Shown piece by piece: positions 53,925 to 55,199 of a stretch of DNA of 64,000 nt. Made by a program: the position numbers and the translations under genes. Origin of the DNA: Clostridia bacterium (lineage in GTDB: Bacteria; Bacillota; Clostridia; UMGS1840). The stretch covers positions 1 to 64,000 of the forward strand of contig JAGBEY010000014.1 in assembly GCA_017936745.1 (NCBI GenBank). The letters are read 5' to 3'. Below the pieces are notes generated by a model. It saw only the letters and a list, made by a program, of their open reading frames with translations, was not told the origin of the DNA and ran no database searches. Every line of letters begins with the position of its first letter. The first letter of the stretch is position 1.

Positions 53925-54000
<76 letters not shown>

Positions 54001-54001
<1 letters not shown>

Positions 54002-54032
54002 AAAATCCTCGTTCGTAAGAACGGGGATTTTT
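54001..54032 (+). terminator. Terminator of tRNA-Pro
   Basis: AAAAATCCTCGTTC pairs with GAACGGGGATTTTT around GTAA (14-bp stem including a T-G pair). It begins at the last A of the CCA end. Confidence 0.85.
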
Positions 54033-54300
54033 ACTTATTACCTATTCCTTATTCACTCTTCCCTAAATACGAACGAGGATTTTTGGAAAGTAATAGGTAA
54101 TAGTGAATAGGGAAGAAGTGTGAAATATGCCTGACGGCATATGATAAGGCAAATTTTATTTCACATTTTTCTAAAAGAAAAATATTTCATAATCCGAAGG
54201 GTTATTTCATATCAACGGAGTTGATATTTCACTAAAACAATTTCTAACCCCCTATATTTTACGGCATTTGTGAGTAAATGCTATAAGAGTGCTTGTGCCA
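54033..54300. repeat. Intergenic hairpin array with ATTTCA spacers
   Basis: No gene is seen. First, CGAACGAGGATTTTT (54070-54084) is an exact inverted copy of the terminator arm at 54001-54015, and ATTACCTATT recurs inverted near 54094. Then, in 54119-54234, four short hairpins (TATGCC/GGCATA, ATTTTTC/GAAAAAT, TAATCC/GGGTTA and ATATCAAC/GTTGATAT) alternate with the spacer ATTTCA or its complement TGAAAT. Confidence 0.65.
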
Positions 54301-54347: not shown

Positions 54348-54379
54348 AAAAAAAGGGACAGACGGGAGCATCTGTCCCT
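54348..54379 (-). terminator. Terminator downstream of the 54.6-kb gene
   Basis: AGGGACAGA (54354-54362) pairs with TCTGTCCCT (54371-54379), with a T7 run on the minus strand. It probably ends the transcript from the 54603-55199 gene, after it crosses the DnaA-box cluster. Confidence 0.7.
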
Positions 54380-54426: not shown

Positions 54427-54590
54427 TGTGGATAACTGCCGGTTTTTAAAACATTGGTATTCCAACGGGTTTCCCTATTTTTCCACAGTTTTCCACCTGC
54501 TTTTTCTCTAATTCCACAATAGTTTTTCAAGTTTTCCCCAAAAAATGTGGATAACTGCTGTTTTTTCGGAAAATCCAAAGTTGTGGACAG
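54427..54590. promoter_or_regulatory. Cluster of DnaA-box-like sites
   Basis: Two perfect DnaA boxes (TTATCCACA as complement) lie at 54427-54435 and 54546-54554, in the same orientation inside a 13-base direct repeat TGTGGATAACTGC. A one-mismatch box TTTTCCACA lies at 54479-54487 in opposite orientation. Weaker sites lie near 54510-54518 and 54582-54590. No dnaA or dnaN is adjacent, so it may be a titration or regulatory site, or part of an origin. Confidence 0.55.
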
Positions 54591-54602: not shown

Positions 54603-55199
54603 TCATTCGGAAATTCGGTCTCCGGTGCGGATATTTTTCGGGGAAAGAATCAACTTTTCATCACGGAAAAGCCCCGATAAAATTTCTGTTCCTTTGTCAG
54701 GGAGAGTCTTTCCCGTTTCCACATTCCGCATCACGGCATAGCCGTTTAATTCCACGAATATCGCATCCTTTCCATCTTCGTCCGATATAACACATTCAGG
54801 AGGAATAAACATCAGATTCCGATGATAATTGCCGTAAAAGGTTGCGGTGGCGTCCCCCATTTCCTCGGGGGGAGAAATCACCGATACCGTAGCGATAGAG
54901 ATACCGTCAAAGGCAGGCTCCAGGCGATAGAGATAGCCGTCATAACGGGTTCCGTCTACCGTCACCACGGCGGTTGCCCCCTCGGTGATATTGTCTGCCA
55001 TACGGATTGCCCCCGTCATCAGTGTCAGGTTGCCGTCCTGAATCAAAGGTGCGGAAAATTCGCACTGTTCCTGCAAATCAGTGAGGGAAACAGTGTGAAA
55101 CTCCACCCGATGAAACCGGTCGTTATAAAGATAATCGAACACCATCGCCCCCAGAATAAGTATGGCACAGACAAAGGAAAACCAAACTACTTTTTTCAT
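54603..55199 (-). CDS. Single-pass membrane protein resembling the C-terminal half of an efflux adaptor
   Basis: A 198-aa protein with one N-terminal helix (MKKVVWFSFVCAILILGAMVFDYLY), the remainder predicted outside. From about residue 65 it resembles the beta-barrel and membrane-proximal parts of HlyD/RND-type adaptor proteins (FIPPECVISDEDGKDAIFV, ETGKTLPDKGTEILSGL, GDRI). The lipoyl and coiled-coil hairpin domains are absent. No ABC or RND transporter gene is next to it. I do not recognise a named family. The ATG follows GAGGTG, which sits inside a terminator-like hairpin. Confidence 0.7.
   Translation of the reverse strand: MKKVVWFSFVCAILILGAMVFDYLYNDRFHRVEFHTVSLTDLQEQCEFSAPLIQDGNLTLMTGAIRMADNITEGATAVVTVDGTRYDGYLYRLEPAFDGISIATVSVISPPEEMGDATATFYGNYHRNLMFIPPECVISDEDGKDAIFVELNGYAVMRNVETGKTLPDKGTEILSGLFRDEKLILSPKNIRTGDRISE

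Follow-up and report, generated by a model that had tools for sequence, protein, structure and literature searches.

What is a dense group of DnaA boxes doing in non-coding DNA that has no replication gene beside it? The question is raised by positions 54427-54590 of a 64,000-nucleotide window (the whole stretch of DNA analysed, G000:C8:1-64000), which belongs to a 1.5-Mb, 20-contig assembly of a Clostridia bacterium; the closest named relative is Clostridia bacterium RGIG4526, a metagenome-assembled genome from roe deer rectum. These 164 bp lie between the 3' ends of two genes and hold three strong and at least four weaker predicted DnaA boxes. A previous inspection of the letters of the window (the sequence-only reading) had listed two perfect boxes, one near-perfect box and weaker sites in non-coding DNA, and our own box listing bears this out. 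The 13-base direct repeat that it described, TGTGGATAACTGC, occurs at both 54427 and 54546 and consists of a DnaA box plus CTGC.

We consider it very probable that the cluster is a real, selected control site with DnaA binding as its function. The reading that we favour, with a probability of about 0.58, is that of an oriC-proximal DnaA-box cluster (DBC) of the Bacillus subtilis kind, which would sequester DnaA and delay initiation; as a control site it would probably restrain DnaA and help to time replication. In the literature that we found, off-origin DnaA-box control sites have been characterized in Escherichia coli (datA and the DnaA-reactivating sequences, DARS) and in B. subtilis (the DBCs). 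The present locus is a conserved example from an uncultured genus of gut Clostridia; its rigid geometry is repeated at the dnaA promoter and agrees with that of DARS in one half.

Box arrangement and conservation

The core of the cluster is a triad of boxes on the minus strand (54510..54554), arranged as box(+)-N5-box(-)-N13-box(-). Read along that strand it is TTATCCACA-TTTTT-TGGGGAAAA-N13-TGTGGAATT, with box starts at 0(+), 14(-) and 36(-). Box I is the perfect box TTATCCACA at 54546..54554 (minus strand), which stands head-to-head with the weak box II, TTTTCCCCA, at 54532..54540 (plus strand) across 5 bp. Box III is the weaker box AATTCCACA at 54510..54518 (plus strand), its start offset by 36 from that of box I. 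An outer perfect box, again TTATCCACA, is found at 54427..54435 (minus strand), exactly 119 bp from box I.

The cluster occurs in four of the five congeneric genomes (G000, which is the source of the window, G001, G003 and G004), in every case just 3' of a gene for a 198-aa protein. The orthologs of this protein share 70% identity in G001, 57% in G004 and 53-55% in G003, and in each genome the boxes follow right after the stop codon. When the four genomes were aligned ungapped from box I, the triad boxes were invariant in 25 of 27 columns, compared with two of 13 in the N13 spacer and 18 of 92 over all non-box columns (Fisher P 4e-12). Box I conforms to TTWTCCACA in all four, box II is invariant throughout its nine columns and box III in eight of nine. 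The outer box keeps its distance of 119 bp in three of the four (G000, G001 and G004). As a control, many distant 3' flanks of other genes scored at chance (8-11) against 26-28 here; this control is indicative only, some of its flanks scoring high, and it is the box-versus-spacer test that carries the argument. The cluster is lacking in order-level relatives in which the 198-aa gene has a distant homolog.

Could the boxes have accumulated by chance, or represent an unselected repeat? Weak boxes are plentiful in AT-rich DNA. Their density is nevertheless above chance, the window having 19 TTWTNCACA sites where 8.55 would be expected. Pattern searches of the genome with two narrower patterns gave 43 TTATCCACA sites and 73 TTTTCCACA sites. 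The boxes at 54427, 54479 and 54546 are the sole TTWTCCACA triple spanning <=119 bp in the assembly, and with 116 sites placed at random 0.47% of trials yielded one (P about 0.005). As a dense cluster it is unique in the assembly; the sequence-only reading had named similar density at many intergenic sites as evidence that would count against it. Just one other pair of perfect boxes lies <200 bp apart (C19:35452/35483); it was set aside as a second cluster, being located inside an open reading frame. The placement statistics speak against chance, as does conservation restricted to the boxes across species whose adjacent protein shares only 53-70% identity. We give this explanation next to no weight and regard it as already refuted by the cross-species conservation of boxes and spacing.

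A second copy of the triad at the dnaA promoter

The same triad is present at the dnaA promoter (G000:C8:102280-102324), where it reads TTTTCCACA-TTTTT-TGTGGAATA-N13-TGTGGAAAA with equal offsets. All congeners have exactly the 0/14/36 spacing at the dnaA promoter, as does a single order-level relative outside the genus (G005). With no more than one mismatch allowed, G000, G001, G003 and G004 each have exactly two triads, one at the dnaA promoter and one in the cluster; the other matches within the genus, with three mismatches, represent the dnaA site read at an offset. A triad search allowing up to three mismatches found no copy of the element outside the genus among 245 genomes of the class. 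A sequence model built from the cluster alone recovers dnaA promoters and, weakly, the dnaA-dnaN region of G000 itself; outside the genus it scores best at the oriC of another species, between dnaA and dnaN of G022 (E 1.4e-6).

The two loci have consistently different forms of box II: TGGGGAAAA marks the cluster, TGTGGAAWA the dnaA site (GGGG versus GTGG). Separate selection, and not recent copying, has therefore preserved each of them. Taken with the box-specific conservation, the geometry identical to that of the dnaA promoter strongly supports assignment of the cluster as a putative DnaA-binding control locus, and to this extent the functional interpretation of the sequence-only reading stands. 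The linkage to dnaA, the conserved spacing of the boxes and the promoter copy of the triad were not part of that reading. The fixed spacing would also be more in keeping with a structured DnaA complex than with a bare sink.

We also observed three 0/14/36 triad matches upstream of dnaA in G005 (G005:C2:79285-79881; L099/L105/L110), which suggests that the module has been duplicated at oriC1, as the dnaA promoter half of the bipartite origin of Clostridia and Bacillus is called.

Relationship to the replication origin

The dnaA-dnaN genes are located at G000:C8:102345-105351, on the same contig as the cluster and about 48 kb from it, in the order parA-parB-serS-dnaA-dnaN and with a canonical bipartite oriC. 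The statement that no dnaA, dnaN or rpmH is nearby thus holds for the window but not for the contig. In the three genomes that carry cluster and dnaA on one contig the separation is 48 kb (G000), 12 kb (G004) and 67 kb (G003), despite differing gene order.

That the cluster might be a second origin, or the true one, is highly improbable. It does hold many DnaA boxes, and the cumulative GC skew is lowest not at dnaA but closer to the cluster, at about 73 kb. The cluster shares the triad with oriC1 in each of its genomes, but in contrast to oriC1 it is not adjacent to dnaA-dnaN, and it has no AT-rich unwinding element beside its boxes: the AT content of its richest 45 bp is 73%, against 93% in both halves of oriC. 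Genes converge on the cluster instead of diverging from it. With a canonical oriC 48 kb away and no AT-rich unwinding stretch, the suggestion that the boxes mark part of an origin is disfavoured.

The sequence-only reading had recommended locating dnaA and the inflection of GC skew. The two do not coincide: the cumulative skew minimum, together with a switch in gene strand, falls near 73 kb (G000:C8:72000-74000) and dnaA at 102 kb.

A probable sink for DnaA near the origin

Within the favoured reading, DnaA would assemble on boxes I-III of the triad (0/14/36) and on the outer box at +119, and the complex would resemble in shape the one formed on the oriC half at the dnaA promoter. At its distance of 12-67 kb from oriC, the cluster would be duplicated soon after initiation, so that its pull on DnaA would be doubled at the time when re-initiation must be prevented. 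The doubled pull would lower the free DnaA available to oriC and to the autoregulation of dnaA.

By analogy, the B. subtilis DBCs are the closest functional and anatomical parallel. Such oriC-proximal clusters in B. subtilis were reportedly described by Okumura and colleagues in 2012. The present locus resembles them in having several boxes clustered in non-coding DNA, outside but near the oriC of a Firmicute (48, 12 and 67 kb), between convergent gene ends. In B. subtilis one strong DnaA region likewise lies between the convergent ends of gcp and ydiF (PMC4447404); it is among the peaks from in vitro DNA affinity purification and deep sequencing (IDAP-seq) of DnaA, which comprise gcp/ydiF (PMC4447404), ywlC, ywcI, yydA, trmE and sda. 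Joint deletion of six off-oriC clusters leads to early initiation, which is interpreted as loss of DnaA sinks (PMC5295017, PMC13220808). The cluster differs from the DBCs in its neighbouring genes; it is the only one that we found, and its invariant triad duplicates the arrangement at the dnaA promoter. It shares with E. coli datA high-affinity boxes, a non-coding position away from oriC and a proposed negative control of initiation. The essential boxes of datA all have the same orientation and accompany a single IHF site (PMC5742627), whereas the triad is head-to-head and the uniform orientation is not observed; B. subtilis itself is without IHF (PMC13220808).

Several observations weigh against a sink of this kind. 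Box II is weak, and G003 has no outer box at +119. The fifth congeneric genome, G002 (77% complete), has only the dnaA triad, the cluster or its contig being absent. Proximity to the origin may in part be inherited synteny. Finally, simple titration requires a number of boxes and not a fixed spacing, so the invariance of the triad suggests something beyond a sink.

Alternative functions

The main novel alternative to the sink is a DARS-like locus in a Firmicute. With the help of box III, DnaA sitting head-to-head on boxes I and II would release ADP and take up ATP, so that the locus would reactivate DnaA; the head-to-head triad would have this role at the remote locus and at the dnaA promoter. 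In the cores of DARS1 and DARS2 boxes I and II are head-to-head with box III oriented like box II (PMC10380432), and this pairing of I with II is described as essential (PMC10380432, PMC5742627). The three-box core of the cluster, also far from dnaA, has these orientations and the same 14-bp start offset between boxes I and II as DARS1 (813107+/813121-) and DARS2 (locus L113: 436+/450-), and its fixed spacing is kept in four genomes. By our measurement both E. coli MG1655 cores are spaced 0/14/26. Box III of the cluster is at 36 instead of 26, that is 22 bp from box II rather than 12, and the additional 10 bp correspond to one helical turn. The cluster also differs in belonging to another phylum and in lying much closer to the origin. 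Since the dnaA promoter holds the same triad, where autoregulation or an origin function is the simpler explanation, the geometry is not proof of reactivation, and B. subtilis has no known regulator of the DnaA nucleotide state (PMC5295017). We therefore view a DARS-like action as unlikely, albeit one with consequences: if true, control of the DnaA nucleotide state by chromosomal sites reaches beyond the gammaproteobacteria. In any case, the 45-bp triad offers a defined module for examining whether such sites are simple sinks or catalysts of the DnaA nucleotide cycle in Firmicutes. The exact E. coli core spacing of 0/14/26 was seen elsewhere, in a triad that directly follows the 3' end of a dnaA gene of Clostridia (G041; L086 1501-1535).

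The presence of an identical triad at the cluster and the dnaA promoter in each of four genomes, and nowhere else in them, might instead point to a remote partnership with oriC, in which DnaA on the cluster loops to, or pairs with, the dnaA promoter triad and tunes origin firing or dnaA expression. Linkage on one contig at 12-67 kb is compatible with this. The distance varies five-fold, however, and the cluster lies downstream of dnaA in G003 but upstream in G000 and G004, and we judge such a partnership to be quite unlikely. Very doubtful too is a transcriptional operator acting on a neighbour, be it the 198-aa gene, a Gut-1 RNA at 54153-54234 or a downstream gene. In B. subtilis DnaA does serve as a transcription factor (PMC4447404), and the minus-strand Gut-1 RNA starts about 200 bp beyond the cluster. 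Against this, the side bearing Gut-1, tRNA and comF is not conserved whereas the cluster is, the M20 peptidase gene of G001 runs towards the cluster, and a promoter scan around the cluster gave fewer matches than shuffled sequences. Control of the flanking gene, as had been proposed, is disfavoured because the sites are 3' of both flanking genes, the 198-aa gene included.

Neighbouring features

Three further boxes complete the cluster. The near-perfect TTTTCCACA at 54479-54487 and the weaker TTTTCCACC at 54489..54497, both on the plus strand, have counterparts in G001 and are absent in G003 and G004. A weak peripheral box, CTGTCCACA in the context GGACANNTGTCC (54582..54590, minus strand), has a counterpart in G001 only.

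The 198-aa gene (54603..55199, minus strand) encodes a membrane-anchored protein with no Pfam match, distant kin of adaptor-like proteins whose genes neighbour ABC permease-like genes in G006 and G007. An intrinsic terminator-like hairpin (54354..54379, minus strand) lies downstream of the cluster, so the transcript of the 198-aa gene probably passes through the boxes. To the left of the hairpin are the Gut-1 RNA, a tRNA-Pro and a comF-like gene on the plus strand. This flank varies, and is occupied by the M20 peptidase gene in G001. The comF/tRNA-Pro side was rejected as a conserved partner of the cluster, since comF orthologs in congeneric genomes have no box cluster nearby.

The Gut-1 assignment (minus strand; Rfam RF01706) scored 52.3 bits, barely over the gathering score. 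Just 3' of the tRNA-Pro, at 54000-54120, is an inverted-repeat element, AATCCTCGTTCG...CGAACGAGGATT with arms ATTACCTATT/AATAGGTAAT, which resembles a miniature inverted-repeat transposable element and whose core is single-copy in the window. For the DnaA-box cluster itself a phage origin was considered and dropped, a phage collection giving no match.

DnaA-box clusters with no dnaA in the locus were also noted in other Clostridia: L088 (G148), between DUF1836 and transaldolase genes, L091 (G120), between the rho and CTP synthase genes, and L092 (G163). Such clusters away from dnaA may be widespread.
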